Source: Anatilimnocola floriformis
GTDB lineage: Bacteria; Planctomycetota; Planctomycetia; Pirellulales; Pirellulaceae
Assembly (NCBI RefSeq): GCF_024256385.1
Contig: NZ_JAMLFW010000001.1
Coordinates: 4,588,001 to 4,652,000 of the forward strand
DNA: 64,000 bases
Direction: 5' to 3'
In this document: positions 10,139 through 64,000 of the stretch, piece after piece
How the letters are laid out: each line of letters starts with the position of its first letter
How positions within the stretch are numbered: the first letter of the stretch is position 1
Notes under the pieces: model-generated
The model's database searches: none
Told to the model about the DNA's origin: nothing
What the model saw: only the letters and a program-made list of their open reading frames with translations
Translations under genes and position numbers: made by a program

Positions 10139-10148
10139 GTGAATTGCT

Positions 10149-11345: not shown

Positions 11346-11347
11346 CC

Positions 11348-36574: not shown

Positions 36575-36902
36575 GTTTTTCTCCCGAGGGCAAGTTCTAG
36601 AGAGCGAAAGGCGAACGCAGTTGAAGGGCTACAGCGGTGGGCAACATATCGAAAGCCGTCCTGCCATTCAATTATTTGTAATCCTTGGGGCGCAACTTCA
36701 TCAAATCTTCCCGACGCACGCGAAACCGGTGACATGGATGGTCACACGAAATTCCTGGCTCAAACGTCGATCGTGCTTTAATAGTTGGGAACATCTCAAC
36801 AATTCTTTCCCTGATTCCCAAAACAGCGCTTGATGTTCTTCCGAAGTCATGGCTCATGTGTGTCTGTCCGCAGGACGGATTACCAAACACGGAGCACGAA
36901 CC

Positions 36903-37145: not shown

Positions 37146-37232
37146 GCCGAAACGCCCACGTGGGCGTCGCTCGGCGGTGGTTCGCCGGGCCTGATGATGG
37201 CAGCCGATCCATCCCGAACCAAGGAACGAACG

Positions 37233-37694
37233 ATGTCCAAGAAAACCAGCTCGAAGACCGCTACCAAGAAGAGCACGAAGAAGGCCGCGCCGAAGAAGAC
37301 CGCGCCGCCTGTGGCAACGCCCAAGCCCGGCGAATGCCCCAAGGGTGGCTCGCACGAATGGACTGAGGAAGGCACCGAGACTTACTGCTCGAAGTGCAAG
37401 GAACCAAAGGTGGCGAAGTCCAAGCGAGCCGCCAAGGAAAGGTCCGCGAAGCCGGCGAAGAAGGTAAAGCTATCCGCCCTCGACGCCGCGGCCCAGGTTC
37501 TCGAATCCAGCGAGCAGCCCATGAACGCGAAGGCGATGATCGAAGCGATGACAACGAAGGGACTCTGGTCGAGTCCCGGCGGCAAGACGCCCCACGCCAC
37601 GCTCTACAGCGCGATCATCCGCGAGATCTCGGTGAAGGGGAAGGAATCGCGGTTCAAGAAGACGGATCGGGGGGATTTTGCGTTCAACGGGTAG
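37233..37694 (+). CDS. HARE-HTH protein with histone-H1-like lysine-rich N-terminus
   Basis: A 153-residue protein from the ATG at 37233, with AAGGA seven bases upstream. Residues 1-30 are almost only Lys, Ser, Thr and Ala (MSKKTSSKTATKKSTKKAAP). A small zinc ribbon follows (C-P-K-G-G-S-H-E-W ... Y-C-S-K-C). After a second Lys/Ala-rich stretch, the last 70 residues form a HARE-HTH domain (ALDAAAQVLESSEQPMNAKA, then LWSSPGGKTPHATLYSAIIR). HARE-HTH domains link chromatin-type and restriction proteins and bind DNA. A nucleoid or regulatory role is likely. Confidence 0.8.
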   Translation: MSKKTSSKTATKKSTKKAAPKKTAPPVATPKPGECPKGGSHEWTEEGTETYCSKCKEPKVAKSKRAAKERSAKPAKKVKLSALDAAAQVLESSEQPMNAKAMIEAMTTKGLWSSPGGKTPHATLYSAIIREISVKGKESRFKKTDRGDFAFNG

Positions 37695-50450: not shown

Positions 50451-50501
50451 CTTTGCAGCGCAGGCGTCCTAGAGATGATCTGCACTTAGGAGGTTATGCG
50501 C

Positions 50502-51713
50502 ATGGCTCGACCTTTCAAGAAACCACCCATTGCTTGTGAATTTTACTTTTGGCACCTGCGGAAACGCGAGGGCGTTTACTATGCCGACGTACGCTACAAC
50601 GAAGTCGATCTTGGCAAACACAGCCTTAGCACTCGTGACCATGGCGAAGCCCTGGAGAATCTGAAGAAACTTGACCGGACTAAGGCGATTGAACGCGGAA
50701 AGCATGTTCCTAGCAAGTCCACCGCAACCGCCGATCTAATGATCGAAGAAGGTTGGAAATTGTACATGGCCGACCGGCAAAAGCCACAAATGTTTGGAGG
50801 AGTTAGTGAGGGATCAGCCAAACGCTACCGGACTGTGCAGCAGAAGCACATTGAGTTCTGTAGCAAACACGGCATTCATTTCTGGAACGATGTTGATGCC
50901 GCGAACACCGAAGCCTACGGCTTGTGGCTTGGCAAGAAAGATTATGCTGAGCGAACGATTTACCTCGAAGTGAACGAAGTGAAAACGGTGGTTAACTGGC
51001 TGATCGATACAAAGCGATTAGCGCCCGAGCACCGCATCGTACTTCCGCTGGTGAAGCCAGACGGTTGCGACGCTTATTGCTACACCTTCGAGCAAGTGAC
51101 TGACATGATTCTATATTGCCAATCCACCGATCTTGGCTGGCTTGCCGATGTGCTAATCGGTTTGGCGTGTACCGGCCTGCGGATCAACGAACTTGCGTCA
51201 CTCCGGTGGAGCGACGTTGATCTGAAGGCGGGGGTTCTACGACTTACCGATGAGCGCTGGAGTCATCGCCGGATCAAACTTGGGTCGGCACGCCATACAA
51301 AGGGGAAGCGGACACGTTGCCTGCCAATCCACCCTGAATTGACCAGGGTATTAGCTCGTCTTTCGAAGACAGTTGACGGTCTAATTTTTCATGGCCCGCT
51401 TGGATTGAAACTCCAAGACTCCACCGTGCTTCGGAATCTTGTGGACAACGTCATCGAGAAACTGAAATCGAAGTATCCGACGCCGGCGGGCGAGATAGGC
51501 TTCGAGCACGGCCGAGTTCACTCGATGCGCCATTACTTTTGCAGTGAAAGCTTTCGCAACGGTGCCACCGAGGCTCAGTTGCTGGAATGGCTCGGTCATC
51601 GAGATTCCAAGATGGTGGCCCACTATCGCCACTTGCGCCCCGATGACTCAAAACGACTGATGAGTTCGATGCGACTGCTTGACCTGAGTTCGGGACAGGA
51701 CAAGACGGCTTAA
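50502..51713 (+). CDS. Tyrosine recombinase/integrase, apparently intact
   Basis: About 403 residues from the ATG at 50502; AGGAGG at 50488-50493 is eight bases before it and only two before the ATG at 50496. Catalytic residues, numbered from 50496: Arg229 (TGLRINELASL), Lys269 (TKGK), His342-x-x-Arg345 (VHSMRHYFC), His368 (LGHRDSK) and nucleophile Tyr377 (VAHYRH). All are present. The N-terminal part has the usual arm- and core-binding regions. The gene is followed by two inverted repeats and then by a serine recombinase. Confidence 0.9.
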   Translation: MARPFKKPPIACEFYFWHLRKREGVYYADVRYNEVDLGKHSLSTRDHGEALENLKKLDRTKAIERGKHVPSKSTATADLMIEEGWKLYMADRQKPQMFGGVSEGSAKRYRTVQQKHIEFCSKHGIHFWNDVDAANTEAYGLWLGKKDYAERTIYLEVNEVKTVVNWLIDTKRLAPEHRIVLPLVKPDGCDAYCYTFEQVTDMILYCQSTDLGWLADVLIGLACTGLRINELASLRWSDVDLKAGVLRLTDERWSHRRIKLGSARHTKGKRTRCLPIHPELTRVLARLSKTVDGLIFHGPLGLKLQDSTVLRNLVDNVIEKLKSKYPTPAGEIGFEHGRVHSMRHYFCSESFRNGATEAQLLEWLGHRDSKMVAHYRHLRPDDSKRLMSSMRLLDLSSGQDKTA

Positions 51714-51888: not shown

Positions 51889-52108
51889 CTGGGTAAATCA
51901 ACGGAGAGGACAGGATTCCGCCGACCCAAAATTACAAGTCATGAGCCGGTAACGGCTTATGACTTTAACTCCTGGGCCGGCAAGGACTTGTTCATTCTCG
52001 CTTGTGCTCGTTTCTCGTCAGGGATTCTCACCTGTTGTCAACTCTCTTGTCCCACTGGGACAAGCGTAGAAGGTTGTTTCCGACGCCTCGAAATAAAGGC
52101 GTCCAGAG

Positions 52109-54064
52109 ATGCTGCGGAAATCTGAGAATGGTCTTACCCCTCGCAACGGCGAGTCATTGATCGTCGCAATTGTCTGCCGGATTTCCGGCTGTGCAAAGCA
52201 AAAGGAGTTGAGCCTCGAAGATCAAGAAGATAACGGAAAGCAATTGATCGGAGAGCTTTACTCGGGCCCGGCGGAATATCGCGTGATCGCCACCAAAGGC
52301 AAAGGTGAGAACCTGGAGCGGCCGGAACTCGAACAGATTGCGGCCGCGTACAAATCGCGAAAGTACGATGTTTTCATCTTTGACGACCTGAGTCGCCTTA
52401 TTCGCGGTGGAGAGGCGGCTCGCCTGCTCGGCGTCGGCGTCGATAACGGCACACGATCGATTTGCATCAACGATGGCATCGATACTGTAGAGGAAACTTG
52501 GGAGCAGGATGCGTTGAACGCTTGCGGGGAAAACGTGGCACACAATCAGCGAACGTCGATGCGGATCAAGCAGAAAACGATGAATCGCTTCAAGAAGTTT
52601 GGGGCGACGGCCAACCGCGCAATCATGGGTTATCTTGTGCCGGATGGTGCAAAGACGTACGCAGATTGGCAGAAGGATCCCCAACGAGAGGCAGTGATTC
52701 GCGAAGGATCGCGTCTCCTGCGTCAAACTCTAAACGGCGAGACGGTGGCAGCTTACTTTCGCGACAAAGGCGTACCGGTGGGTCCCTTTTCTCGGAACGA
52801 AAATTGGAACGGAACCATGGTGCTCCGTTACTTTCGCAATACATTGCTAAAGGGCTACCCGCAGCGCGGAAGAACGGCGACTGTAAAGCACCATGCCACT
52901 GGCAAACGCCACTCGCGAACGAACCCCAAGGGGCCAAGCTACTTTCATGCCCCCCATCTGGCGCACCTTGACCCCATCGAGTTCGATGAGCTCGTTACTC
53001 TGCTTGCCGAAAACAACAAGCATTTTAGGCGGAAAACCGAAAAGGGAGGTGATCCACGACTTGCGGTTCCGCGAAAGCGAACACGTTCATTCGGGCAGCA
53101 TGCCCGTTGCTGGTATTGTGGGCGCCATTACGTATGGGGCGGCAATGGCATCACTGACAATCTGATGTGTTCAGGTGCCCGAGAACGGAAGTGTTGGAAT
53201 TCGATCGGTTTCCCTGGAATTCTGACAGCCGAAAAGCTAGTCCAAGTCATCACCGAGAAATTGTTCGCCCTTGATGGGATTGACGACCAGTTTCGAGAAC
53301 TTGTGCAACAGGCCAATTCCGGAGGGACTGACGGTCTAACTGCACGCTGGAAGAATTTGGAACGCGATGCGGCGACTCTTGCACGCAAGAAGGAAAGAGT
53401 TACGGAAGCAGTTCTTGAATATGGAAAGTCGTCCACAATTGGGGAGATGCTTGCGGAAATCGAGAAACTTGAAAAACTGCAAGCCGCTGAACGGCACTTT
53501 TTAGAATCCGCAAGGGAACGAACAATCGATGTTCCACCGTCTAGTGGCGAATTGCGTCGTTTGCTCACCGAAGAACTTCGGCGGCTCACAGTGAATTCGC
53601 TGGAGTTCGGCGAGTTTATTCGACAACTTATACCGTCGATGCATATATATCTCGTGCGAGTTTGCGATGGCGGACATCTCTTGCCTCGGGCCAAGTGTCG
53701 CCTGGATCTCGTTGGAAACTTCCCTGACGCAGATCTAATGCCAGAATTGAAAACGTTGCTGACTACTGATATCACGCTTGACTTGTTCGAACCGCCTCAG
53801 CGAGTTCGCATTCGAAGTGATGCGGTTGGGCTGGCGGCGGAGGGAGTCGAACAACGGGAAATTGCTGCTCGAATCGCCGAGAAGCCCACTCAAACGGCTG
53901 TCTGGAAGTCTCTCGAGTTACAGCGTCGAATGGACTTGCTGCAACTGAAAACCCCTTACGAACTCGTTTTTGCGCCTCCCGCCAATTACTCAAAGCTGCG
54001 GCGCCATCTGCATCCACAGTATGTGTTCGAGCCACTGAACCGTTACGTACCTCCAGAAATCTAG
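52109..54064 (+). CDS. Large serine recombinase
   Basis: A 651-residue site-specific recombinase. The catalytic domain carries the nucleophile in VCRISGCAKQ (Ser26) and LSLEDQEDNG, with FDDLSRLIRGG near residue 93. It is followed by the recombinase domain (about 170-290), a zinc ribbon (CWYCGRHYVW ... CSGARERKC, about 335-365), and a coiled coil (about 415-500). The length fits the large serine integrase group, which moves phages and integrative elements. The C-terminal 150 residues after the coiled coil are longer than usual and include an HTH-like GVEQREIAARI. A terminator follows. Confidence 0.88.
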   Translation: MLRKSENGLTPRNGESLIVAIVCRISGCAKQKELSLEDQEDNGKQLIGELYSGPAEYRVIATKGKGENLERPELEQIAAAYKSRKYDVFIFDDLSRLIRGGEAARLLGVGVDNGTRSICINDGIDTVEETWEQDALNACGENVAHNQRTSMRIKQKTMNRFKKFGATANRAIMGYLVPDGAKTYADWQKDPQREAVIREGSRLLRQTLNGETVAAYFRDKGVPVGPFSRNENWNGTMVLRYFRNTLLKGYPQRGRTATVKHHATGKRHSRTNPKGPSYFHAPHLAHLDPIEFDELVTLLAENNKHFRRKTEKGGDPRLAVPRKRTRSFGQHARCWYCGRHYVWGGNGITDNLMCSGARERKCWNSIGFPGILTAEKLVQVITEKLFALDGIDDQFRELVQQANSGGTDGLTARWKNLERDAATLARKKERVTEAVLEYGKSSTIGEMLAEIEKLEKLQAAERHFLESARERTIDVPPSSGELRRLLTEELRRLTVNSLEFGEFIRQLIPSMHIYLVRVCDGGHLLPRAKCRLDLVGNFPDADLMPELKTLLTTDITLDLFEPPQRVRIRSDAVGLAAEGVEQREIAARIAEKPTQTAVWKSLELQRRMDLLQLKTPYELVFAPPANYSKLRRHLHPQYVFEPLNRYVPPEI

Positions 54065-54092
54065 GAAGGAACGAGAACGCTGTGGCATCAAC

Positions 54093-54120
54093 GACCCTGG
54101 CATACCGCCGGGGTCTTTTT
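54093..54120 (+). terminator. Rho-independent terminator after the serine recombinase
   Basis: 9-bp stem GACCCTGGC / GCCGGGGTC (one T-G pair), loop ATACC, followed by TTTTT. Confidence 0.85.
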
Positions 54121-54143
54121 ATTTCTTGTTACCGGAGAGTGTT

Positions 54144-54347
54144 GTGCCAATTCAAAGCCGCCCGCACAAGAAACCGGAGAATCTAATCGAAACTCCCATC
54201 CCCTCGAATACCGTGCTGCACCGCTTACTCACACTGGTCGCAGTCGCAGTTGCTGCGCGACTTCGTGACGACAGTTGGAAGAATAAGAAGTCCGCGACAA
54301 CAAATGATCAAAGTGGCGATTTGTTACGTCGTGAGACTTCGAACTGA
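54144..54347 (+). CDS. Small hypothetical protein
   Basis: A 67-residue protein from a GTG with GGAGAG five bases upstream (VPIQSRPHKKPENLIETPIP). It has one weakly hydrophobic helix (LLTLVAVAVAARL) and a polar tail. Not recognised. Confidence 0.45.
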   Translation: MPIQSRPHKKPENLIETPIPSNTVLHRLLTLVAVAVAARLRDDSWKNKKSATTNDQSGDLLRRETSN

Positions 54348-54500
54348 CTACACGCACTTATCGAATCTTTAGGCTGAATAAGCGTTCTCGTAATCGGCAC
54401 GGGGATTCAAAGGCGCGGATCATGTAACAGTGATCAGCATTCACGATGTCTTACGACTATTCCCTATTCAAGTCAATTTCAACGGAAGGAGGTTAGGCAA

Positions 54501-54704
54501 ATCAATACGCTGATTGGCTGCTTTGCAGTCACAGTTGCTGTTTTAGCAGTAGCTCTCGTGTGGCAGACGCGAATGCTTCGCGCAACTCGCCGGCTGCTGC
54601 GCAGAATTCTTACCACAAGGAGAACGAATTCCAATGAAACTACGACACATCTTGATCGTGAGCATCCCGATCGCGAGCGTGCTCGTCCAGACGGTCGGGT
54701 GTAG
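54501..54704 (+). CDS. Small one-pass membrane protein with apparent ATC start
   Basis: A perfect ribosome site AAGGAGG at 54486-54492 is followed, eight bases later, by ATC AAT ACG and an open frame of 67 codons to TAG at 54704. The product starts with a membrane helix (LIGCFAVTVAVLAVALVW) and continues with an Arg-rich tail (MLRATRRLLRRILTTRRT). No ATG, GTG or TTG lies near the site in this frame. The 3' end overlaps the next gene by 71 bp in another frame. ATC starts are very rare, so this rests on the ribosome site and the membrane-protein character. Confidence 0.4.
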   Translation: MNTLIGCFAVTVAVLAVALVWQTRMLRATRRLLRRILTTRRTNSNETTTHLDREHPDRERARPDGRV

Positions 54705-55203
54705 CAGTGACTCCCGACTCGGAGACCTGGCACAACAGGTCACGCACGAACAGGCAGCGCAGAACCAACGGATGGCGGAGTCTACGCAGAAAATCGCGCA
54801 GGGTAGTCAGCAATTGGTTGAGGCTGACGCCAAGGCCCGCCGTGACCTTATTCAAATGCAAAATGCGCTGAGACAAGACCAAGCCGAGCTTGCGAAGCAG
54901 CGCGACGCTCTCGAAATTGCGAGAGTCGAAGTCGCCGAGGACCGGCTTACCGATTCGCAGGTGGCTAATTGCATCATAGCCATCGGAGTACTAATAGCCG
55001 CCGTCGCGCCACTTGTACTGGCAGGGATCTCACTGGTGGGGCTGTGGCGAGAACCGACCCGAGAAGAAGAAGGGCACGTGCTCATTGAAGAATTGGCCCG
55101 GGAACTTATCCCCGACCAGGTTCCTCCACTTCCTCGCTTGGCGCAAAACAACATCGGCGAATTGCGTATCCAGGGACGGGATGCCGACGGCCACCGCGCT
55201 TGA
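54634..55203 (+). CDS. Lipoprotein with coiled coil and second membrane helix
   Basis: A 189-residue protein. The start MKLRHILIVSIPIASVLVQT followed by V-G-C-S-S is a lipoprotein signal with the lipidated Cys at residue 23. Residues 30-110 form a long coiled coil rich in Gln/Ala/Glu (EADAKARRDLIQMQNALRQD). A second hydrophobic helix (IIAIGVLIAAVAPLVLAGIS) is at about 113-132, with an acidic tail. It is the first clear gene of the DUF1257 cassette. Confidence 0.65.
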   Translation: MKLRHILIVSIPIASVLVQTVGCSSDSRLGDLAQQVTHEQAAQNQRMAESTQKIAQGSQQLVEADAKARRDLIQMQNALRQDQAELAKQRDALEIARVEVAEDRLTDSQVANCIIAIGVLIAAVAPLVLAGISLVGLWREPTREEEGHVLIEELARELIPDQVPPLPRLAQNNIGELRIQGRDADGHRA

Positions 55204-55245
55204 AGCAACACACAGTCTGTTGATGTTGTCTTCAGCGCATTCAGT

Positions 55246-55320
55246 CGACTGAAAACTAATTTCAATATTTCGACTGAAAACTAATTTCAATATTTCGACT
55301 GAAAACTAATTTCAATATTT
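55246..55320. repeat. Three perfect 25-bp tandem repeats
   Basis: Three back-to-back identical copies (55246-55270, 55271-55295, 55296-55320) of a 25-bp AT-rich unit beginning CGACTGAAAAC and ending CAATATTT, flanked on the left by TCAGTCGACTGA-like sequence. They end 17 bp before the DUF1257 start codon. Units of this length and spacing are typical of iterons or of binding sites for a regulator. Confidence 0.9.
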
Positions 55321-55336
55321 TCGAAAGGATCTGATC

Positions 55337-55708
55337 ATTTCCCATATCGTTTTGATAAAGACTGAGGTCCGTGATACTGCAGCGATCATCGCAGCCTGCA
55401 AGCGTCTCGGTCTATCCCCGCCAGTCAATGGCCAACACAAGTTGTTCACCTCCATGGCGTCTGGTCTCGGCATCAAGCTGCCCGGCTGGAATTACCCGGT
55501 TGTCTGCGATCTCAGTACCGGCCAAGTGCAGTTTGATAACTTTAACGGCCGTTGGGGGGCGCAGCAGGAACTCGACCGCTTCCTCCAAGCGTACGCTTGC
55601 GAACGAGCTCTTATCGAAGCCCGAAAGAAAGGCTATTCCGTCACGGAGCAATTGCTCCAGAACGGTTCGATCAAACTGACAATTCACGTTTCCGGAGGTG
55701 CGGCATGA
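55337..55708 (+). CDS. DUF1257 (Ycf35-like) protein, apparent ATT start
   Basis: A 123-residue protein of the DUF1257 family, known as Ycf35 in algal plastids and cyanobacteria; the biochemical role is unknown. Family members begin M-S-H-F-x-x-I-K-T. Here the conserved I-K-T-E-V-R-D is preceded in frame by S-H-I-V-L, and the initiating codon would be ATT at 55337, seven bases after AAAGGA. A TTG at 55352 is the only standard alternative but has no ribosome site and would drop the conserved S-H. Later blocks YPVVCDLSTGQVQFDNFNG and RWGAQQELDRFLQAY fit the family. It overlaps the next gene (ATGA). Confidence 0.78.
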   Translation: MSHIVLIKTEVRDTAAIIAACKRLGLSPPVNGQHKLFTSMASGLGIKLPGWNYPVVCDLSTGQVQFDNFNGRWGAQQELDRFLQAYACERALIEARKKGYSVTEQLLQNGSIKLTIHVSGGAA

Positions 55709-55902
55709 CAAAAATCATCGAAGTGACCGTCCTACCCAGTGGTGAAACCAAGCTGGAAACCCAGGGTTTTGCGGGAACTGAATGTCGCGATGCCAGCCGC
55801 TGCTTTGAGCAGGCTCTGGGCGTATCTGGCCAGCAAAAGTTCACCGCCGAATACCATCAACAGTTGCGATCCACGCAACAATTGCGAGAAGGCCAACATT
55901 GA
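55705..55902 (+). CDS. DUF2997-family small protein
   Basis: A 65-residue protein (MTKIIEVTVLPSGETKLETQ, then GFAGTECRDASRCFEQALG). The pattern of an I-x-V-x-x-x-x-x-G-x-x-x-x-E-x-x-G-F-x-G-x-x-C strand followed by a helix matches DUF2997, a small family I know beside DUF1257 genes. It overlaps the DUF1257 stop by 4 bp and so is made with it. Function unknown. Confidence 0.75.
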   Translation: MTKIIEVTVLPSGETKLETQGFAGTECRDASRCFEQALGVSGQQKFTAEYHQQLRSTQQLREGQH

Positions 55903-56108
55903 GCCCTGACGCTTCGCCATCGCAGCGCCAGTGTAAGAAATGTTCGCAAAAAGTACGGGCTAAATCAACAAACCGGGTTGTAGCTATCGATTCATATGCG
56001 CGCTTGCTTCGGAATCGCAGGCGGCAAGCAGCTGCCTTTCCAATCTTTACTCGCCAACGTAAGGGCCGGTGCGCGACCACCACGTCGCGCACCGGCTCTC
56101 GAATCTAA
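55899..56108 (+). CDS. Possible small C-x-x-C protein
   Basis: A TTG overlapping the DUF2997 stop (ATTGA) opens a frame starting MSPDASPSQRQCKKCSQKVR, basic and with one C-x-x-C pair. It runs through the hairpin at 56065-56096 and ends 11 bp before the AAA+ gene. The overlap and the Cys pair argue for it; the poor second half argues against. Confidence 0.25.
   Translation: MSPDASPSQRQCKKCSQKVRAKSTNRVVAIDSYARLLRNRRRQAAAFPIFTRQRKGRCATTTSRTGSRI
56065..56096 (+). promoter_or_regulatory. Perfect 13-bp hairpin before the AAA+ gene
   Basis: Stem GCCGGTGCGCGAC / GTCGCGCACCGGC with loop CACCAC, ending 23 bp before the ATG of the AAA+ gene. There is no T-tract, so it is more likely a message-stability or control element than a terminator. 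Confidence 0.7.
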
Positions 56109-56119
56109 GGAAGATTTCT

Positions 56120-57601
56120 ATGTCGCTTACAGAGCGCATGACCGAATTGGTGCGGGCCTGCTTCACAGGCTTGTGGATTGAATCGCATGAGCATGAGGAG
56201 GCGCTGGCCGAAATCGGTCAGCTTTGTCGGGAAGAGCAATGGCGTCTCGCAACTTGGGATATCGAAGATGGACTTCAGTTGCCGGGCCAAGCCGCAACCG
56301 CGGAGAATGGAAGCAGTGATCCGTTAGCGGCGATCCGGGCGCTGGCATCCTTTCCCGCTTCCGACTCCCCCACGCTATTGGTGCTCGTGAATTTTCACCG
56401 CTTTTTGCAAAGTGTCGAGATCGTGCAGGCTCTGTCGAAACAGATCGCCCACGGCAAGCAGAATCGGAGCTTCATCGTCATTTTGTCACCACTGGTTCAG
56501 GTGCCCGCTGAGCTGGAAAAGCAATTTGTGGTGCTGGAGCACGATTTACCGGGTCGTGAACAATTGACGGAGATCGCCAGGGGAATTGCCACAGAGCCCG
56601 GCGAACTCCCAGCGGCCGGTGACTTTGAACGCTTGATCGACGCCGCAAGCGGACTGACCCGCTATGAGGCAGAGGGGGCGTATAGCTTGTCGCTGGTGCG
56701 GCATGGCCGACTAAGGGCAGAGGTGCTCTGGGAACAGAAAGCACAGATGCTCAGGAAGAGCGGCCTCATTTCACTCCATCGCGGCAACGAGACCTTCGCA
56801 GAAATTGGTGGCCTCGACGCACTCAAAGCGTTTTGCCTGCGCGCGATGCGCAAGCAAGGCGAAGCAACTGCTTTGTTGCGACCGCGCGGAGTGTTGCTCT
56901 TGTCACCACCTGGCTGCGGCAAGAGCGCCTTTGCAAAGAGCCTCGGAAATGAAACTGGCCGGCCGACATTGACCCTCGAAATCGGCAATCTGTTGGGAAG
57001 CCTGGTTGGAGAAAGCGAACGGAACATGCGTCAAGCGCTGCGAATCGTCGACGCGATGGCACCGTGCGTGCTGTTCGCAGATGAATTGGAGAAAGGACTG
57101 GCGGGAGTCAGTGGCAACGCAGGAGATTCCGGAGTCGCGTCGCGAATATTTGGTCAATTGCTCACTTGGTTGAACGACCGTTCAAGCGACGTCTTCTTCG
57201 TTGGGACCTGCAATGACATTTCGCGATTGCCACCGGAATTTGCGCGGGCTGAACGTTTTGATGCCGTGACGTTCATTGACCTACCGGATCAATCGCAACG
57301 GCGGAGGATTTGGGAAATGTACCTCGCTAAATTCCATTTGAATCCTGCCCAGCAAATCCCCAACGACGACGAGTGGACCGGCGCTGAAATCCGCGCCTGT
57401 TGCCGGCTCGCTGCCCTTCTGGACCTGCCACTGAATGCCGCCGCCCAGCATGTGGTGCCGATCGCACGCACTGCCGGCGAAGCAATTGAAAAACTGAGGA
57501 ACTGGGCCAGTGGTCGCTGCTTGAGTGCGAATCGAACAGGCATTTTCCAACGGGGAACTCCGCCGCGGCGCAAAGTAGACCGTGAGGCTTCGCAGAATTG
57601 A
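56120..57601 (+). CDS. AAA+ ATPase, Ycf46-like
   Basis: A 493-residue ATPase from the ATG at 56120 (AAGGAAG upstream). Residues 1-200 are the N-terminal degenerate P-loop-like region typical of Ycf46 (PTLLVLVNFHRFL, FIVILSPLVQVPAELEKQFV). The AAA+ core has FAEIGGLDALKAF, Walker A SPPGCGKS (262-269), Walker B CVLFADELEKG (316-326), sensor 1 VFFVGTCND and arginine-finger region PPEFARAERFD. All catalytic parts are present. The C-terminal 60 residues contain the usual helical lid plus a basic tail. In cyanobacteria Ycf46 and Ycf35 co-occur; here the two families stand in one operon. Confidence 0.85.
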   Translation: MSLTERMTELVRACFTGLWIESHEHEEALAEIGQLCREEQWRLATWDIEDGLQLPGQAATAENGSSDPLAAIRALASFPASDSPTLLVLVNFHRFLQSVEIVQALSKQIAHGKQNRSFIVILSPLVQVPAELEKQFVVLEHDLPGREQLTEIARGIATEPGELPAAGDFERLIDAASGLTRYEAEGAYSLSLVRHGRLRAEVLWEQKAQMLRKSGLISLHRGNETFAEIGGLDALKAFCLRAMRKQGEATALLRPRGVLLLSPPGCGKSAFAKSLGNETGRPTLTLEIGNLLGSLVGESERNMRQALRIVDAMAPCVLFADELEKGLAGVSGNAGDSGVASRIFGQLLTWLNDRSSDVFFVGTCNDISRLPPEFARAERFDAVTFIDLPDQSQRRRIWEMYLAKFHLNPAQQIPNDDEWTGAEIRACCRLAALLDLPLNAAAQHVVPIARTAGEAIEKLRNWASGRCLSANRTGIFQRGTPPRRKVDREASQN

Positions 57602-57680
57602 AACCGAGGCGTTAAGCGAATGTATCGGTCGCGTTCCGGCTGATGCAGTATGTTCGCTAGGATTATCAGAGCGTTCACAC

Positions 57681-57902
57681 TCACAGGCCCTTCATCAACT
57701 CGGCAATTGAAATCCCTAGGGCGTTGGCAATGCGCTCGATATTCCTCAGGGCGACATTTCGCTCGCCGCGTTCAATTCCGCCCATATAGGTTCGGTCGAG
57801 CTGGCACTCATGGGCGAAGTCCTCTTGTGACCAGCCCTTAGCAGTGCGCAGGGACCGCACCCGCTGGCCGAAGTTCTCCAAGATGTCGGCCGTCTTTGCC
57901 AT
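57681..57902 (-). CDS. XRE-family helix-turn-helix regulator
   Basis: A 73-residue Cro/CI-type protein ([20 protein letters not shown], then [20 protein letters not shown], ending [13 protein letters not shown]). It is on the opposite strand inside the plus-strand cassette, and so may repress a promoter for the genes from 58065 onward. Confidence 0.87.
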
Positions 57903-58064
57903 CTCCGGATCATGGTTACAGAGATGCCTATCGGTCGACGGACTATGAGTATCTTTTCAGTCCCGAGCTGGCTACACTGCCGAAACACAGCGCCATGTAG
58001 TCCTACGCGGAAAGCTTGCTCCCACGTCACGAGAATTCCCCAATCACGAAATGGAGATACTTCA

Positions 58065-58493
58065 ATGACCCAACGAACCTGCCAGGTCTGCGGCCGTTCG
58101 GTTCCACTTGGCGACGGAAATTGTCCTTTCTGCGGAGGCGAAAGGTCGGGACCGTTCACAGCCTCGCGAGCGCGTTTTAGCACACCGCCGGCCATCTGGT
58201 GGCTGCTTAACGGCACTGTCATTTTTTTGTTGCTGCTAAATGTGATTGTTCTGGCGCTCCCCGCACAATCCGGGGGACGGCCGGCGCCTCGCGTTCAGCC
58301 AAATTCCGCACCGATCCCCAAGACCTTTGCCGATGTACACGGGCGCGTGCAAATAATCGCGACTTCGGATTTGTTCTTCCCCTGCATCAGTTTGGGCGTA
58401 ATGTACGTCTTCACAAATCGCGCCACATCAGCCTTGCAGAAGGCAGGCATCCAGGTCGGTCTCTTGGGGGCCAATCTCAGCACCGTGCCCTAG
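58065..58493 (+). CDS. Zinc-ribbon small membrane protein
   Basis: A 142-residue protein from the ATG at 58065 (GGAG upstream). It begins with a rubredoxin-like zinc ribbon (RTCQVCGRSVPLGDGNCPFC), then a membrane helix (WWLLNGTVIFLLLLNVIVLA), a proline-rich linker, and a second hydrophobic stretch (LFFPCISLGVMYVF). Not assigned to a family. Confidence 0.6.
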   Translation: MTQRTCQVCGRSVPLGDGNCPFCGGERSGPFTASRARFSTPPAIWWLLNGTVIFLLLLNVIVLALPAQSGGRPAPRVQPNSAPIPKTFADVHGRVQIIATSDLFFPCISLGVMYVFTNRATSALQKAGIQVGLLGANLSTVP

Positions 58494-58796
58494 CGCAGGA
58501 CCCCCGATATACCGCCTTCTGTCGGGCGAGCAACGCGTCCGCCTCGCCGCCCACAATAAACGCTGCGACTAAGCCAATCGTCACACTTCGGAGCGGATCG
58601 AACCGAACTGAGTGGCGCGCCAGAGATCTGGTAGCTGAAGTTTTCTTGCTGCCGACGAGGGCTTCTCTGGCCCAAGCTGATCAGGCACCCGCTGCTCGCC
58701 ACGTTTCATGCTGCCTGCCGCCGTATGGCTAACTTCTGGCGCGCTTCTGCTTGCCATCGCGTTTACTTACCTCTTCGCTTCTTTTTGGAGACATCA
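58494..58796. other. 303-bp gap in the cassette
   Basis: No gene recognised. A GGAGA ribosome site for the next gene is at its right end. No obvious promoter or repeat was seen. Confidence 0.4.
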
Positions 58797-59741
58797 ATGA
58801 CCGCCTTGTTAGACCTACCGGCTGCGCAAAATCAAAGCGCGCCCGCCGATCGACTGCGAACCACCATGGCCGCAGTGCGCGTGATGTTTACTTGGCTCGG
58901 TAGCCGGAAGACGTTAACGCAGGAACAAAAATCCCAGGCGGCCGACACGTTCGGCGCCGAGCGGGCCTATCTGTCTGCTGGCAAGAAACTGTTGGATACA
59001 TCGCATCCCGCTTTCAAAGCAGTGACCGCTGTGCGGCATCGCGTGACTGCCTACTGGAAGGGGGTTTCCCTCCCGTATCCAGAAAGCGGTATTCGCTTGA
59101 TCCGCCAGGATGACATCGGCGCGTTCACGGTACAGGTGACCTCCCTAAAAGCGGAACTCGACGAAGCTGTTATCCAGCTCGACGAACGGTACGAAGAATT
59201 GCGAACGGCCGCCCGTCGCCGGCTCGGCTCTCTGTATAGCGCTGGGGATTATCCGGCGACACTCCGCGGGTGGTTTGATGTGACCTATGATTTTCCCAGC
59301 GTTGAACCGCCGGATTATTTGCGCCAGTTGTCGCCGCAGCTTTACCAGCAAGAAGCGGCCCGGGTGGCCGCCCGGTTTGACGAGGCAGTTGAACTCGCTG
59401 AACAGGCCTTCACCGAAGAGCTTGCAAAGCTCGTTTCTCACCTGACCGAGCGTTTGGGTGGTGCCGAGGATGGCAAACCCAAAGTCTTCCGCGATTCTGT
59501 CGTCGAGAATCTTCGCGAGTTCTTTGAGCGGTTTCGGCACCTCAACATTCGCTCGAATGAGCAGCTCGATGATTTAGTAGGGCAAGCGCAACGCGTGGTG
59601 CGCGGCGTCGAGCCGCAACAATTGCGCGACAACCAAGCGCTTCGGCAGCAAGTTGCTTCGCAGCTGTCGGGAGTGCAATCGGTGCTTGATGGCCTGCTCG
59701 TCGACCGCCCACGCCGTAACATCCTCCGCCGCAGCAAGTGA
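58797..59741 (+). CDS. Helical hypothetical protein (314 residues)
   Basis: Start at the ATG at 58797 with GGAGA nine bases upstream. The protein is almost entirely helical and charged, with coiled-coil-like parts (TVQVTSLKAELDEAVIQLDE, QEAARVAARFDEAVELAEQA) and a basic end (RPRRNILRRSK). The layout recalls phage or plasmid proteins of the DUF3150 type, but I am not certain. It belongs to the cassette with the AAA+ ATPase and the clamp-like protein. Confidence 0.55.
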   Translation: MTALLDLPAAQNQSAPADRLRTTMAAVRVMFTWLGSRKTLTQEQKSQAADTFGAERAYLSAGKKLLDTSHPAFKAVTAVRHRVTAYWKGVSLPYPESGIRLIRQDDIGAFTVQVTSLKAELDEAVIQLDERYEELRTAARRRLGSLYSAGDYPATLRGWFDVTYDFPSVEPPDYLRQLSPQLYQQEAARVAARFDEAVELAEQAFTEELAKLVSHLTERLGGAEDGKPKVFRDSVVENLREFFERFRHLNIRSNEQLDDLVGQAQRVVRGVEPQQLRDNQALRQQVASQLSGVQSVLDGLLVDRPRRNILRRSK

Positions 59742-59753
59742 GGCACCTCCATT

Positions 59754-59999
59754 ATGGAACTGCTGATTGAACTTGGAGGGCGGGCCCGTTGTATTTACGG
59801 CGAGACCATCAATCTGGCACAACTGGGCACATTGACTATCTGCCGCGGTTCGCATGTCGAACCCGATGAACGTGGTCAATGGGTTTGCGATCTCTCACCG
59901 GTTTCGGGACCGACGCTCGGTCCCTTTGCTTCTCGTAGCGAAGCGCTCATCGCCGAAGTGGCTTGGCTATCCCAGCACTGGTTGCTGCCGACGGCCTGA
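59754..59999 (+). CDS. Small hypothetical protein
   Basis: An 81-residue protein 12 bp after the previous stop (MELLIELGGRARCIYGETIN). The central segment, with DERGQWVCDLSPVSGPTLGP and the following FASRSEALIAEVAWL, looks like a small beta-sheet plus one helix. Such 70-80-residue proteins are frequent in planctomycete accessory cassettes. Function unknown. Confidence 0.55.
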   Translation: MELLIELGGRARCIYGETINLAQLGTLTICRGSHVEPDERGQWVCDLSPVSGPTLGPFASRSEALIAEVAWLSQHWLLPTA

Positions 60000-60012
60000 C
60001 CGTCGGCGTTTT
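59987..60012 (+). terminator. Hairpin overlapping the stop of the previous gene
   Basis: 8-bp stem GCCGACGG / CCGTCGGC with loop CCTGA, which contains the TGA stop, followed by GTTTTC. It may act as an attenuator or weak terminator. Confidence 0.6.
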
Positions 60013-60037
60013 CTTCGCTCATTTCAAAATCGTCGGT

Positions 60038-60065
60038 CTGCGGTGCGCGCATGCGCACACCGCAG
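60038..60065. repeat. 28-bp near-perfect palindrome
   Basis: CTGCGGTG and CACCGCAG arms enclose the perfect 10-bp palindrome GCGCATGCGC, with one mismatched pair overall. It lies 37 bp before the next gene and could be a dimer-binding operator or a hairpin in the message. Confidence 0.6.
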
Positions 60066-60102
60066 GCCTATCTCGTTGTTCTTATTTTCAAGGAGTTTGT
60101 CT

Positions 60103-60291
60103 GTGACCCAAACTGAACTGAATGAAGCCGTAGCTGACGCCACGGGAGAATCGTTACGCACCATCCGTCGCCGCGGCTTCAGCGCGCTTACGCCGCTCCA
60201 AGCATTCAATCCAGACCAAGATGACGATGCGCTTCCAAGCGTTGTCGATTGGGATGCGTTGGAACGCGACCAAAGGCGCAGCGCTGCTTAA
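60103..60291 (+). CDS. Small acidic hypothetical protein
   Basis: A 62-residue protein from a GTG with AAGGAG upstream (MTQTELNEAVADATGESLRT, then IRRRGFSALTPLQAFN). The first part is a helix pair that could be a tiny DNA-binding fold; the end is acidic. Its ribosome site is strong, so it is very likely translated. Confidence 0.6.
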   Translation: MTQTELNEAVADATGESLRTIRRRGFSALTPLQAFNPDQDDDALPSVVDWDALERDQRRSAA

Positions 60292-60321
60292 GCGCTAACG
60301 CTTGATACAACGAATTGTTTC

Positions 60322-60353
60322 GGGTGGTAGTCAGTTTGGCTACCACCCTTTTT
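60322..60353 (+). terminator. Hairpin with T-tract before the clamp-like gene
   Basis: Perfect 9-bp stem GGGTGGTAG / CTACCACCC with a 9-base loop, followed by TTTTTG, ending 32 bp before the next start. It looks like a full terminator inside the cassette, so the clamp-like gene may need readthrough or its own promoter. Confidence 0.75.
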
Positions 60354-60384
60354 GTCTTCACCTTTTCTCTAGGGAGACTTTGCG

Positions 60385-61824
60385 TTGATTCAGATTACCC
60401 GCTTACTAGCCAAGCACATTCTCTCGGTTGTGAAGAGGACTTTCCCTCGGCAAGCCGCGCAGACTGTGCTGACATTTCGCTCCGGCGATGCTGGTCTGTA
60501 TGTCAAAGTACAGGGAACCAACCAGGCCCTTCAATTCTGCGACCCTCGGCCGCAAGACTCTGAGCTCTTGTATGTTCCGCTCAGCGTTCTCGACGATGTA
60601 AAGGGCTCAAAAGCAGAACCGGTGTTTTTGAATTGCCGTCGAGCGGGCGTGCTCGGCGCGAGTTGGCAAGAAAAAGGCGTCTTTCAGGACCTGGAATACG
60701 ATGCCCCGGAACCGGCCGCGGATGCACAGCCTTTTCCTACCCTACCAGCGCAGTTTATCGAAAATTCGGCCGATTTGCTTACCGCATTGCGTGACGCCTA
60801 CGAAACGACGGACGTCGAAAGCAAGCGATATGCGCTCGCCAGTATCCAACTTCGTGGCAGCGATGGAATTATCGCCGCTACCGACGGTCGCCAGCTGTTG
60901 AAACAAGCAGGATTCACGTTTGGCTTCGCCGAAGAGTTGCTGCTGGAGCACACGAAGTTCTTTGCGAGCAAAGAACTGCCTTACGATAAGCCAGTACGCG
61001 TCGGCAAGCCCGATGACAAGGTCGTATTTCAGGTCGGCCCCTGGACCTACTGGCTGGGCATGTTAGTGGAAGGCCGTTTCCCCGACATTGACCGCTCGAT
61101 ACCGTCCACCTACTCAAGCAAGGCGACGCTCAAGCTCGCATCCGCCGATGCCAAGTTTCTGGTTGACAACCTGCACCGACTGCCAAATGGTGAAACGCAC
61201 CGCGAACTGACCGTCGACTTGAATGGAAAGGTTATTCTGCGAGCAGCTTCTCCCAGCACGCCGCGGCCGGCGGAAATGTTCTTGCGAAATTCCAGCAAGC
61301 AGGGCGAAGACGTCCGCATTTGCACAGATCGCAAGTTCCTGGCGCGAGCCGCGGCGATGGGTTTTTCGGATATACATTTTCCGGATACAGCTTCACCTGC
61401 GATCGCCAGCGACGCGAGCCGCACGTTCGTGTGGATGTTGCTTGATCCCAAAGAGGCTCTAAAGTCGAGCGAGGACTGCATCCGAATTGAGTCGCCATTC
61501 AGCACTCGCAATGACGCACCCTCTGCTGTGCGGCGCAAAGAATCGCCTCAAACGACCGTCGCGGATAAACTCTCGCCGGCAAAGCCTACACTCGGAGCAA
61601 AGTTGCCACCGTCGACGACGGAGCGTGGTGTCCGTTCGAGTCCAGAGGCAGAGATGCACCAAACGTCCTCCGCCGCGGACTGCGCAATCTCAATTCGCAG
61701 CCAACTGCGATCCACGCTCGCAGCCGTGAACGAACTGATCCGCACGATCAAAACCGAAAAACGAAGCCGCAGGACATTGAAGTGCGCCATGGAATCAATC
61801 AAGCAGTTGCAAGACGTGGCGTAA
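60385..61824 (+). CDS. DNA polymerase III beta-clamp-like protein
   Basis: A 479-residue protein (TTG start). The middle resembles domain 2 of the sliding clamp: KRYALASIQLRGSDGIIAAT followed by D-G-R-Q-L-L, then KVVFQVGPWTYWLGMLVEGR and F-P-D-I. Clamps have R-Y-x-L-x-G-x-x-L-x-x-x-x-x-x-L-x-x-V-A-T-D-G-x-R-L and E-G-x-F-P-D at these places. The region at 260-370 would be the third domain. The final 110 residues are a Ser/Pro-rich linker and a basic helix (AAVNELIRTIKTEKRSRRTL), absent from housekeeping clamps. The first domain is divergent. It may form a ring on DNA for element replication or signalling. Confidence 0.6.
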   Translation: MIQITRLLAKHILSVVKRTFPRQAAQTVLTFRSGDAGLYVKVQGTNQALQFCDPRPQDSELLYVPLSVLDDVKGSKAEPVFLNCRRAGVLGASWQEKGVFQDLEYDAPEPAADAQPFPTLPAQFIENSADLLTALRDAYETTDVESKRYALASIQLRGSDGIIAATDGRQLLKQAGFTFGFAEELLLEHTKFFASKELPYDKPVRVGKPDDKVVFQVGPWTYWLGMLVEGRFPDIDRSIPSTYSSKATLKLASADAKFLVDNLHRLPNGETHRELTVDLNGKVILRAASPSTPRPAEMFLRNSSKQGEDVRICTDRKFLARAAAMGFSDIHFPDTASPAIASDASRTFVWMLLDPKEALKSSEDCIRIESPFSTRNDAPSAVRRKESPQTTVADKLSPAKPTLGAKLPPSTTERGVRSSPEAEMHQTSSAADCAISIRSQLRSTLAAVNELIRTIKTEKRSRRTLKCAMESIKQLQDVA

Positions 61825-62248
61825 GAAAGTTGTCCATCCGTGCGAGCGAGTCTCACATCGAGTCCCCCGCTGGCCGCTCCGCGCTGGCGTTGGTCCACGA
61901 ATCATGGCGCGAGTCATTTACTGTTCTCACCTGAATGGACGCAGATTTTGTGCACCGCAATCAATTGACCGGCAAACTTTATAGTCAGCTTGACGCCTGC
62001 CTCGCTGTGCAAAACGATTCGGGCGGGGGCGAAAGCCTCCGCCCGCATTCTTTTTTTCTTAGCTATTCCAATTATGTCACACCTATCAAATAGTCCGCGA
62101 ATTGGCCCGACTGGATTGAAATCGTGACTCATATCAGCGTAAGCCCTTCGATTGCCCCTGCAGCAACCAATTGCCCGGCGTCATGCCACATGACGACATT
62201 TCGTCGCACAAAAATCTACTTCGACTCGTTCCCGAACCTCGCTTCAAT
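61825..62248. other. 424-bp gap after the clamp-like gene
   Basis: It contains the terminator at 62020-62058. I see no gene in the remainder. Confidence 0.5.
62020..62058 (+). terminator. Rho-independent terminator closing the cassette
   Basis: 11-bp stem CGGGCGGGGGC / GCCTCCGCCCG (one G-T pair) with a GAAA loop, followed by CATTCTTTTTTT. Confidence 0.85.
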
Positions 62249-62506
62249 TCACGCCATAATGCTGGCTAGGTGCGGCTCGGCGACGGAGTAGTACACGAAC
62301 CGACCTTCCTTTTCCGCCTTCAACAGCCCACAGCGTTGCATCAATCGCAAGTGTTCGGAGGCCATTGGGCTGGCAATCTCACACGCCTCAGCCTACTCGC
62401 CAACCGTGTGGTGTCCCAACAACATCATCTGCACCATCCGCAAGCACTCCGCCGCTTGGCCAAGCGATTCCAAGCTGATCAGCTTTTTCTTCGTTTTGCT
62501 ATTCAT
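62249..62506 (-). pseudogene. arsR: ArsR-family regulator with nonsense codon and deletion
   Basis: The minus-strand frame from the ATG at 62506 reads LESLGQAAECLRMVQMMLLG, then HHTVGE, a TAG at 62395-62393, then in the same frame AEACEIASPMASEHLRLMQR and KEGRFVYYSVAEPHL to a TGA at 62249. ArsR proteins have G-E-L-A at the stop, so TTG to TAG is the simplest change. They also have about ten more residues between C-L-R and M-V-Q, holding H-P-x-R-L-R, which are missing here. Gene dead by two lesions. Confidence 0.8.
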
Positions 62507-62599
62507 GTCTCTGACCTTTCCAGTCAAATATCGTAGAGTTACGACATGACAACCGCGCTCCATTAACTTTGGTACAACGAAGATTCGCCTCCGTCCACC

Positions 62600-62704
62600 A
62601 CGATCCCGCTGTGCATCTACTTCCTCGTCATGTTCTTCGTCGACTTCTGGATGGGCAACGCGATCGGTGCCGACTATTCAAAGAAATTCACGATTGTGTT
62701 CAAT
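62600..62704 (+). pseudogene. ACR3-type arsenite transporter fragment
   Basis: The plus strand encodes [20 protein letters not shown] then [16 protein letters not shown], which fits a middle-to-late helix of the ACR3 arsenite pump (family pattern I-P-L-x-I-Y-F-x-x-M-F-x-x-S-F-x-M-G-x-x-x-G-A-D-Y). Only about 35 codons remain, ending a few bases before the alcohol dehydrogenase gene. With the broken arsR this is the scar of an arsenic-resistance operon. Confidence 0.6.
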
Positions 62705-62726
62705 GCTTCGATAAGGAAGTGCCCAC

Positions 62727-63800
62727 ATGTCGGAGAAAATGAAATGCTTCGCGATGCACGGTATTGGCAAGGTCGGCATGCTGGAAAAGCCCATCCCGCG
62801 TGCTGGACCGAACGATGCCATCATCCGCACGACAGTTGCGCTGATTTGCACTTCCGACGTCCACACTGTGGCAGGTGCAATTGGCGACCGCCACGGCTTG
62901 ACGCTCGGACATGAAGCGGTGGGCGTGATTCACGAGTTGGGCGAACTCGCGGCCGCCAGCGGTCTGTTTAAAATCGGCCAGCGCGTCGCGGTCAACGCCA
63001 TCACACCGTGCTATGCCTGCGACAATTGTCAGCGCGGCTATTCGAGCCAATGCGGCGAAATGCTCGGCGGTTGGAAATTCGCCAACCTCAAAGATGGTAG
63101 CTTCGCCGAGTTTTTCCACGTCAACAACGCGATGACCAACCTCGCACCGATTCCCGCCGGCCTCTCCGATGAGCAGGCAGCGTACTGCTGCGACATGCTC
63201 TCGACCGGATTCGTCGGGGCGGAGCATGCAAACATTCCGATCGGCGGCAGCGTCGCGATCTTTTCGCAAGGACCGGTTGGATTGATGGCGACTGTCGGCG
63301 CTCGTCTCCGCGGCGCGGGACTGATCATCGGTGTTGAGTCCATGCCTAACCGCGTCGCGTTGGCAAGGAAATATGGTTGTGACGTCGTTGTAGACTTCAC
63401 TCAGGATGACCCCGTCGAAGCAATTCTGAAACTCACAGGCGGCAAGGGCGTCGATTCATCGATTGAGGCGTTAGGTGCTGCACAAACTTTCTCGGCATGC
63501 GTGCGTGTCACGCGCCCTGGAGGAACGATCTCCAACATTGGCTACCACGGCGACGGGGACAATGTGCCGATCCCGCGCGTAGACTGGGGAGTGGGCATGA
63601 GCGACAAGACTATCCGAACGGGATTGTGTCCGGGTGGCGCGGAACGGATGGGCCGCCTCCTACGGCTCATCGAGAATGGTCGCGTCGACCCTCTTCCGCT
63701 GACAACGCATCGATTCCCATTCCACGACATTGAGAAGGCGTTCCGAATGATGCAAACCAAAGAGGACGGAATGATCAAGCCATTGATCTCGTTTCCGTAG
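62727..63800 (+). CDS. Zinc-dependent secondary alcohol dehydrogenase
   Basis: A 357-residue medium-chain dehydrogenase of the CbADH/TBADH type, which interconverts secondary alcohols and ketones with NADP(H). Catalytic zinc ligands: Cys41 (LICTSDVHT), His62-Glu63 (TLGHEAVG), and Asp156 ([16 protein letters not shown]). Asp rather than Cys at the third site is typical of this branch. A structural-zinc loop is present (Cys95, 98, 101, 109). The nucleotide-binding glycines are in [25 protein letters not shown] precedes the ATG. No lesions seen. Confidence 0.9.
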
Positions 63801-64000
63801 TGCCTCGCGATAAAGAAGCGTCAACTATGAAATTGCTTATTGTTAGGCTGGTAGCAAGACTGAAGATGCGGCCGCGGTCACTCGTAACCGGCAGAAAACT
63901 CCCAGTTCATTCTCGTTGAGCGAGGCCGAGGTATCGTTCGCCAGCTGCGGACTATCCTATGTCATCGGCGGCGTGAGTGCCGAGCGGGAGAAACTGATCT

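Follow-up and report, generated by a model that had tools for sequence, protein, structure and literature searches.

The window analysed here, a 64,000-nucleotide stretch of the genome of the planctomycete Anatilimnocola floriformis, carries a cassette of genes in the order serine recombinase, membrane-anchored coiled-coil protein, DUF1257 protein, DUF2997 protein, AAA+ ATPase, DUF3150-like protein, two small conserved proteins that we call sm81 and sm62, and a DnaN-like sliding clamp. The cassette recurs with conserved order across Planctomycetota. Its parts are of known kinds, and their combination is not found in the literature searched. The large serine recombinase, at the 5' side of the cassette (52109..54064, + strand), matches Pfam Resolvase (E 5.1e-7) and the phrog_95 integrases (E 2.6e-27). 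The coiled-coil protein ("lipo"; 54634..55203, +) had been called a lipoprotein with a coiled coil in an earlier, sequence-only reading of this DNA; the membrane-anchored coiled coil stands, and the lipoprotein part of that claim is based on a lipobox-like TVGC noted by eye at the N-terminus. Relatives of lipo lie 5' of DUF1257 in a number of loci and between the AAA+ and DUF3150 genes in some.

Scans against Pfam, PHROGs, PADLOC and NCBIfam covered ten window proteins (all of those considered here except sm62) and placed the DUF1257, DUF2997, AAA+ and XRE genes where the sequence-only reading had put them. The DUF1257 (Ycf35-type) protein (55352..55708, +) matches PF06868 at E 3.3e-4 and 21.3 bits, slightly below the cut-off of 22.2, and its kinship is backed by its position and by 39% identity to a homologue on the plasmid pTHEAM01. 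Its start may lie a few codons further 5': by eye, the start codon of the homologues corresponds to ATT here, and the next usable start is the TTG at 55352. The DUF2997 protein (55705..55902, +) matches PF11211 well above the cut-off (E 4.6e-15; 55.6 versus 24.1 bits). The AAA+ ATPase (56120..57601, +; 493 residues from the ATG at 56120) belongs to the classical AAA clade (Pfam AAA, E 3.6e-26) and matches phrog_8638 nearly end to end (E 6.5e-83), with residues 2-471, counted from two codons after that ATG, aligned to positions 22-541 of the 568 in the family. The sequence-only reading had called this protein Ycf46-like and had placed the Ycf46 family alongside the Ycf35 genes of cyanobacteria; no model with the name Ycf46 is among the NCBIfam matches listed for the AAA+ protein. 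The sequence-only reading had further spoken of small unknown proteins, among which sm81 (59754..59999, +) and sm62 (60103..60291, +) prove to be conserved; it missed that the 314-residue helical protein between AAA+ and sm81 (58797..59741, +) is DUF3150-like. This protein does not itself match PF11348, and its relatives on a viral contig (L009) and a plasmid (CP114554) score 22.0 and 37.7 bits, respectively, against a cut-off of 24.9. A tblastn search links it to a gene annotated as DUF3150 on plasmid CP114559 (E 2e-34), its relatives hold the same place in the mapped loci, and a fold search of PDB with it gave no match at E 0.001.

The last gene of the cassette (60385..61824, +) encodes a protein of 479 residues with a long C-terminal helix. 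The protein matches no Pfam family at E 0.1, hence not Pfam DnaN, and the one PF02767 match in the host genome lies elsewhere. Three lines of comparison agree with the earlier description of it as DnaN-like. A profile of a 22-row clamp alignment finds DnaN in PDB (E 4.6e-6). The AlphaFold2 model (a single chain, as in all of our structure predictions; predicted local distance difference test score [pLDDT] 85, predicted template modelling score [pTM] 0.72) consists of a body of ~370 residues, a low-confidence linker and a helix at residues 430-478, and its top Foldseek match is DnaN 3t0p (E 2.3e-20, template modelling score 0.74 by target length). Finally, hhalign relates the clamp alignment to the host DnaN and ten relatives with a probability of 96.9 (E 1.6e-10). 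These comparisons show a predicted beta-clamp fold over the body of the protein. The stretches TD-ES-RYAL, TDGR and EGRFP are common to the cassette clamp and DnaN; in the E. coli clamp, the TDG and RFP stretches line the peptide pocket. The shared TD-ES-RYAL stretch suggests that the cassette clamp originated from a planctomycete DnaN.

The sequence-only reading had tied this clamp to the DUF1257 and AAA+ genes and had named as the danger to its proposal that the clamp would not recur with them. A gene-order survey found the association in tens of loci, and the candidate undescribed system that it proposed is indeed a recurrent cassette. Within the family of the host, the AAA+ gene (E 1e-60) is present in 46 of 119 genomes and a clamp match (E 1e-3) in 29 of the 119, many of the weak clamp matches being open reading frames (ORFs) of ~370-400 residues that we read as chromosomal DnaN (ten of these were aligned with the host DnaN). 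Our locus maps show the following order, with parts absent in many loci: lipo, DUF1257, DUF2997, AAA+, DUF3150-like, sm81, sm62, the clamp or another module, a gene labelled MPLKV, and a PD-(D/E)XK nuclease. In the mapped set, 25 of 26 distinct clamp places lie with sm81 or a DUF3150-like gene, the exception being a half gene (L063/L109). A profile scan of genome contigs for DUF3150-like genes, independent of clamp and AAA+, gave 155 relatives, the best 80 of which constitute loci L118-L197 (contigs named as planctomycetes, a few by genus name; the set overlaps loci fetched earlier, L155 being L066 and L177 being L106). The profile used for the final map was built without the fused relics L012 and L014. 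These best 80 loci contain AAA+ in 65 cases (40 of the 46 loci with at least 5 kb upstream), DUF1257 in 44, DUF2997 in 46, sm81 in 78, sm62 in 64, MPLKV in 24 and the nuclease in 18. They include a cassette of Blastopirellula marina DSM 3645 (L173), with DUF1257, DUF2997, AAA+ and DUF3150-like genes, and a clamp-bearing one of Singulisphaera acidiphila DSM 18658 (L193). Where at least 1.5 kb of sequence lies 3' of the DUF3150-like gene, sm81 is found in 67 of 67 loci and sm62 in 60 of 67. Across a phylum sample of 294 genomes the distribution is patchy, with the DUF3150-like gene in 13, the clamp in 10 and an E2-like protein (see below) in 8; the best five to seven candidates per genome were scored, so that copy numbers are lower bounds. 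By hand count, 12 clamp matches out of 15, and just as many of the 15 E2-like matches, have a DUF3150-like match on their strand at a distance of no more than ~3 kb. The remaining clamp matches are G382, G373 C103 and G000 1933034 (where the DUF3150-like gene is truncated), and the remaining E2-like matches are G382, G373 C142 and G402.

Besides the identity of the DUF3150-like protein, the survey brought to light two features of sister loci that the sequence-only reading had not seen, a ubiquitin-like (Ubl) module and a nuclease. In many sister loci the slot after sm62, before or instead of the clamp, is occupied by genes for a modifier, an E2-like protein, a JAB protein and an E1 (L115, L106 and L107 are among the further examples); the module lies before sm62 in L095 and L118 and before DUF1257 in L168. 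The modifier, ~74 residues long, approaches ThiS (E 2.7e-4; 21.9 versus 22.5 bits); close to its end it has a conserved KIEG, with A or G as the next residue. The JAB protein matches Prok-JAB above the cut-off in L107 (E 1.7e-6) and slightly below it in L115, and the E1 matches ThiF above the cut-off (E 1.1e-20). The fourth protein, of 350 residues, has an invariant HPH-x6-C and at least eight CxxC pairs; a profile search of PDB with it found no E2, and matches of its cysteine-rich tail to RING proteins were no more than marginal (best E 0.0077). On the strength of the HPH-x6-C signature, we infer that it is E2-like with a RING-like tail. Among the best 80 loci, 25 have the clamp, 25 have the Ubl module (at least two of its four genes), and two (L130 and L155) have both; a further 24 have neither within a 3' sequence of less than 6 kb, and among these L123 and L161 show one Ubl gene. 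Where module and clamp occur together (L066/L155, L075 and L130), the order is modifier, E2-like, JAB, E1, clamp. Likewise, E1 adjoins the clamp on the small contigs L036 and L039, and an E1 remnant lies between two sm62 copies, 5' of the clamp, in L070. Part of the sister copies have a Cas4/AddB-like nuclease 3' of the clamp (PDDEXK_1, E 4e-38; cas4, E 1.7e-11, below the cut-off); among the 25 clamp loci of L118-L197, short contigs included, the nuclease is present in 11 and MPLKV in 18. In the window, four profiles detected none of the four Ubl genes, and the gap between sm62 and the clamp is only 93 bp. The window copy represents a form that has neither Ubl module nor nuclease.

The core genes are also found on plasmids and viral contigs. 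Plasmids of Candidatus Manganitrophus (Nitrospirota) carry AAA, DUF1257, DUF2997, DUF3150 and sm81 in a row, with one small extra ORF separating AAA and DUF1257 on CP114554, and a plasmid of this group with the core also carries toprim, helicase and ParB genes. On CP114559 a PRTRC cassette (ParB, C, B, A and ThiF, with unnamed ORFs between) begins ~7 kb beyond the core and spans 7-10 kb from it. Two Paraburkholderia plasmids have PRTRC genes ~7 kb 5' of DUF3150-like and VWA genes, immediately 5' of which, on pPHS1_P, lies an annotated ATP-binding protein; the AAA+, DUF1257 and DUF2997 proteins of the window match nothing in these stretches. DUF3150 plasmids of Simplicispira, Variovorax and Rhodovastum show no annotated PRTRC gene in the stretch viewed, where annotation is incomplete, and this weighs against a firm tie to PRTRC. 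We take PRTRC proteins C, B and A to be Ubl, E2-like and JAB proteins, respectively. Membership of the planctomycete proteins in the PRTRC families is rejected by the family models: the best score is that of E1, 30.9 bits against 144.75, and in none of 60 genomes was a protein above the cut-off. An hhalign comparison, in which each side had no more than two or three PRTRC sequences, found a relation for E1 only. Since the planctomycete Ubl proteins fail these models, two different Ubl systems appear to lie near related modules. Among viral contigs, L009 has AAA and a DUF3150-like gene whose neighbours include genes for YqaJ exonuclease (E 1.6e-29) and DnaB helicase (E 1.4e-92); other ORFs of L009 that we had read by eye as annealase, RusA and DUF1257-like match no Pfam family at E 0.1. 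L199 has a DUF1257-like gene (Pfam DUF1257 at only E 0.042), AAA and a DUF3150-like gene. pTHEAM01 carries AAA, DUF1257 and DUF2997, with ssb and Rad52 genes ~10 kb off. Neither the clamp nor the E2-like protein has a match in the plasmids scanned, and no clamp was found on viral contigs in a scan that reaches close relatives only.

Of nine matches to the AAA+ gene within the host genome, six are strong (100, 86, 70, 69, 70 and 80% identity, the last three partial); the clamp is found in five places (100, 85, 68, 61 and 59% identity). As judged by tblastn with the window proteins, five other regions have the same gene order, with losses and fusions in some. We computed ratios of nonsynonymous to synonymous divergence (dN/dS) for the window against one of these, copy 2, and against the copy in a sister genome (G053). 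The values are 0.06-0.07 for AAA+ (with dS about 1), 0.05-0.08 for the DUF3150-like gene, 0.04-0.09 for sm81, about 0.06 for sm62, 0.02-0.03 for the XRE gene, 0.20-0.22 for the clamp and 0.14 for DUF1257 (copy 2 only, dS 1.7); DUF2997 is saturated. The main cassette genes are under purifying selection. Between 56120 and 59741, silent divergence from copy 2 drops: dS is 1.2 in AAA+ and 0.24 in the DUF3150-like gene, and comparison with G053 gives a similar picture. This drop suggests recombination between copies within the cassette. DNA homology between the window and copy 2 extends, with gaps, from ~55365 to 61968 and resumes at 62022-62095, and in copy 2 this second stretch lies 3' of a serine recombinase gene (Pfam Recombinase, E 2.7e-16). 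The end at 62020-62095, where the window has a terminator-like hairpin (+) and the shared 3' flank, is found as 74-76 bp of 78-80% identity 3' of the copy 2 recombinase and after a related stretch in G053. Homology to the G053 copy starts at ~50982, inside a tyrosine recombinase gene (50496..51713; Pfam Phage_integrase, E 3.7e-19). The link to recombinases and mobile DNA that the sequence-only reading had drawn holds for part of the loci: a co-directed serine recombinase lies within 4 kb 5' of DUF1257 in 12 of the 61 loci with enough flank, the window included. The cassette in Planctomycetota is probably element-borne.

Several further features accompany the cassette. Three tandem 25-bp repeats immediately 5' of DUF1257 (55246..55320; a 24-base motif starting at 55246, 55271 and 55296) are a possible binding site; none of the other five cassette regions in the host genome contains a 22-base core of theirs. 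An XRE/Cro-type regulator gene (57681..57902, - strand; Pfam HTH_3, E 1.6e-13) is found at the same position and in the same orientation in L010, in L108 and in several loci of L118-L197, and lies 3' of sm62 in L012. A zinc-ribbon/transmembrane ORF (58065..58493, +) is apparently a fusion through a deletion of ~0.8 kb, its residues 1-104 and 105-144 being encoded ~0.8 kb apart in L010 and L012. A strong hairpin with a T run (60322..60348, +) lies within the cassette, 5' of the clamp gene. The sequence-only reading had described the cassette as closed, with terminators at both ends; because terminator-like sites in 52000-64000 number 15, against 14.5 expected from shuffles, and because this hairpin is internal, that description is only partly shown. 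In L064 and L071 (G053) the AAA+ gene is interrupted by a 2.4-kb insert (L064:5105-7502), which encodes a reverse transcriptase-maturase-HNH protein (by Pfam for L064; the L071 ORF is alike) and is therefore a group II intron; an intein is ruled out. The site is identical in L064 and L071, at about codon 351, and L113 may be a third case. CBASS genes (cyclase, HNH-SAVED effector and E2) lie ~6 kb from copy 2 (L019:2438-5542); as genes of its flank, they are rejected as part of the cassette. A small P-loop ORF in the flank of copy 5, ~9 kb after the nuclease (L025:8185-9039, -), looked by eye like a clamp loader and has only a sub-threshold AAA match in Pfam. Elsewhere in the window, 26895-27654 and 36794-37693 recur with ~94-95% identity in the vicinity of two other cassette copies and represent dispersed repeats or transposons, and a run of pilin-like and secretion-ATPase-like ORFs, read by eye, occupies 4669-13934.

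What might the cassette do? The sequence-only reading had suggested DNA-associated work, be it element replication, DNA surveillance or defence. We give an even chance to the interpretation that it is a recurrent cassette for DNA replication, recombination or maintenance of a mobile element, in which the clamp recruits partners to DNA and the AAA+ protein remodels protein complexes. The host clamp loader would place the element's clamp on DNA, and the retained peptide pocket of the clamp would recruit a nuclease or polymerase to element DNA. There the classical AAA+ protein, with DUF1257, DUF2997 and DUF3150 as putative adaptors, would pull apart or remodel protein complexes, which in sister copies are perhaps marked by Ubl. 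Overall, the cassette would serve to replicate, recombine or maintain the element. The multiple copies, the conserved order, the clamp fold, the nuclease, the neighbours engaged in DNA work, the dN/dS values of 0.02-0.22 and the upstream recombinases in 12 of 61 loci speak for it and, taken together, leave it about evenly balanced. More specifically, the full form could be a bacterial counterpart of the eukaryotic PCNA-ubiquitin-Cdc48 circuit in one mobile operon: a Ubl pathway with an E2-RING-like fusion and JAB, a Cdc48-like segregase with adaptors, a DnaN-derived clamp and a RecB/Cas4-like nuclease would act on proteins that are tagged where the element replicates or recombines. We regard this more specific version as doubtful.

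A number of observations weigh against a role in DNA replication or maintenance. Among the cassette genes we identified none for a replication initiator, primase or polymerase, and the top matches of the AAA+ protein are classical AAA models, not clamp loaders (phrog_168 only at E 0.022). Many of the mapped loci were selected via clamp or AAA+ matches. Eight of the best 80 loci have neither clamp nor Ubl module despite at least 6 kb of 3' sequence, so that both parts are optional. No recombinase was found near 49 of the 61 loci, so that mobility is not shown for each locus. Neither an empty site nor the element ends were found, a search of the sister genome with the right flank yielding nothing but short matches. 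On pTHEAM01, secretion and pilus genes are nearer to AAA+ than the DNA genes, which are not its direct neighbours, and a relative of the AAA+ protein on a Treponema plasmid is surrounded by genes for contractile injection or a phage baseplate, a setting at odds with work on DNA.

The main rival explanation is anti-phage defence, in which the clamp or Ubl would sense the replication of invading DNA and the AAA+ protein and nuclease would attack it. The patchy, multi-copy distribution would suit such a role, bacterial Ubl systems are known in defence according to the part of PMC10097602 that we consulted, and copy 2 has its CBASS genes nearby. The AAA+ domain also matches the IetA defence ATPases (E 9.4e-20), but at the level of the AAA domain only (69.6 versus 510 bits) and with no IetS protease among the family matches, so that IetAS itself is rejected. 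Similarly, the E1 and JAB of sister copies match the CBASS E1-E2 and JAB models (E 2e-13 and 1.7e-5, respectively), but E1 fits the housekeeping ThiF and MoeB models better and the E2-like protein has no PADLOC match at E 1e-3. No complete PADLOC system is present in the window cassette, and the core module occurs beside phage and plasmid DNA-processing genes as well; we consider defence unlikely, though well worth keeping in mind. Alternatively, the core could be a Cdc48-like unfoldase for Ubl-tagged proteins with no focus on DNA, the window copy having lost the tagging part. The Ubl, E2-like/RING-like, JAB and E1 genes in the slot after sm62 of many loci, the E1 remnant in that slot in L070, and the presence on a plasmid of a different Ubl cassette (PRTRC) 7-10 kb away from this core all fit this explanation. 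The AAA+ protein does match the CDC48 model (E 3.4e-26), but over the AAA region only and at 91.8 bits against a cut-off of 802.65; no Ubl-binding domain was identified, and the window core persists under selection without the module, which makes an unfoldase of this kind quite improbable. Finally, the cassette could be what is left of an integrated element, now in decay and without function. Copies L011, L012 and L014 have truncated or fused genes, and the window itself has the seemingly deletion-fused zinc-ribbon ORF and the odd DUF1257 start; MPLKV and the nuclease, which copy 5 has, are absent from it, as is the recombinase at the right end of copy 2. The main genes are nevertheless open and, apart from DUF2997, for which no score was obtained, have dN/dS of 0.02-0.22 in comparison with two other copies; decay is very unlikely.

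The operon offers a testable common role for orphan families: it links DUF1257 (Ycf35), DUF2997 and DUF3150, for which the literature searched records no known biochemistry, to an AAA+ protein, a clamp, a nuclease and the apparent Ubl pathway of sister cassettes. The latter would be a bacterial setting that joins protein tagging and DNA clamps, and the clamp points to a second DnaN lineage on planctomycete mobile DNA.

How does the cassette compare with known systems? The literature searched holds no description of it, most subscription papers being beyond the reach of that search and earlier notice of the Ubl part being possible. The cyanobacterial Ycf35 genes share with it the adjacency of DUF1257 and DUF2997, and duf2997, ycf35 and fed7 form a cluster according to the part of PMC4284462 that we consulted; the planctomycete cassette adds the AAA+, DUF3150-like and clamp genes, and no ferredoxin is seen in it. 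The AAA-ATPase of Corndog-type mycobacteriophages (phrog_8638) matches the AAA+ protein over nearly its full length with 27-28% identity, whereas no DUF1257, DUF2997 or clamp is annotated within 7 kb in these phages, whose neighbouring genes are mostly "hypothetical." SgiAT of SGI1, as portrayed in the portion of PMC10954446 consulted, pairs an AAA+ antitoxin of the SpoVK/Ycf46/Vps4 group with an S8 protease toxin and is likewise an AAA+ system of that broad group on a mobile element; the window cassette differs in having no subtilisin-like protease among its Pfam matches. Compared with DnaN, which it resembles in the fold of its body and in the profile match, the cassette clamp is a second, cassette-borne gene without a Pfam DnaN match, and its long forms have ~120 extra residues ending in the long helix. 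The bacterial Ubl operons (BilABCD, CBASS type II and the "6b/6c" operons of 2006) have, as do the sister cassettes, modifier, E2-like, JAB and E1 genes in a row, but the sisters have a single ThiS-like modifier with KIEG and an E2-like protein with its CxxC pairs. The literature searched does not link such operons to AAA-DUF1257-DUF3150-clamp: the portions searched of Iyer 2006 (PMC1779556) mention neither planctomycetes nor AAA or PCNA, and those of a 2024 review (PMC11354881) mention neither planctomycetes nor AAA or Cdc48. The sequence-only reading had allowed that the cassette might prove to be a known system with a different name; PRTRC only comes near to that. The window cassette has no Ubl genes and no clamp is seen in the PRTRC stretches, but the order of modifier, E2-like, JAB and E1 is similar and a Ubl-type module lies near DUF3150-like genes on plasmids. 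We keep PRTRC, a system of plasmids and integrative and conjugative elements, as the closest analogue of the cassette.

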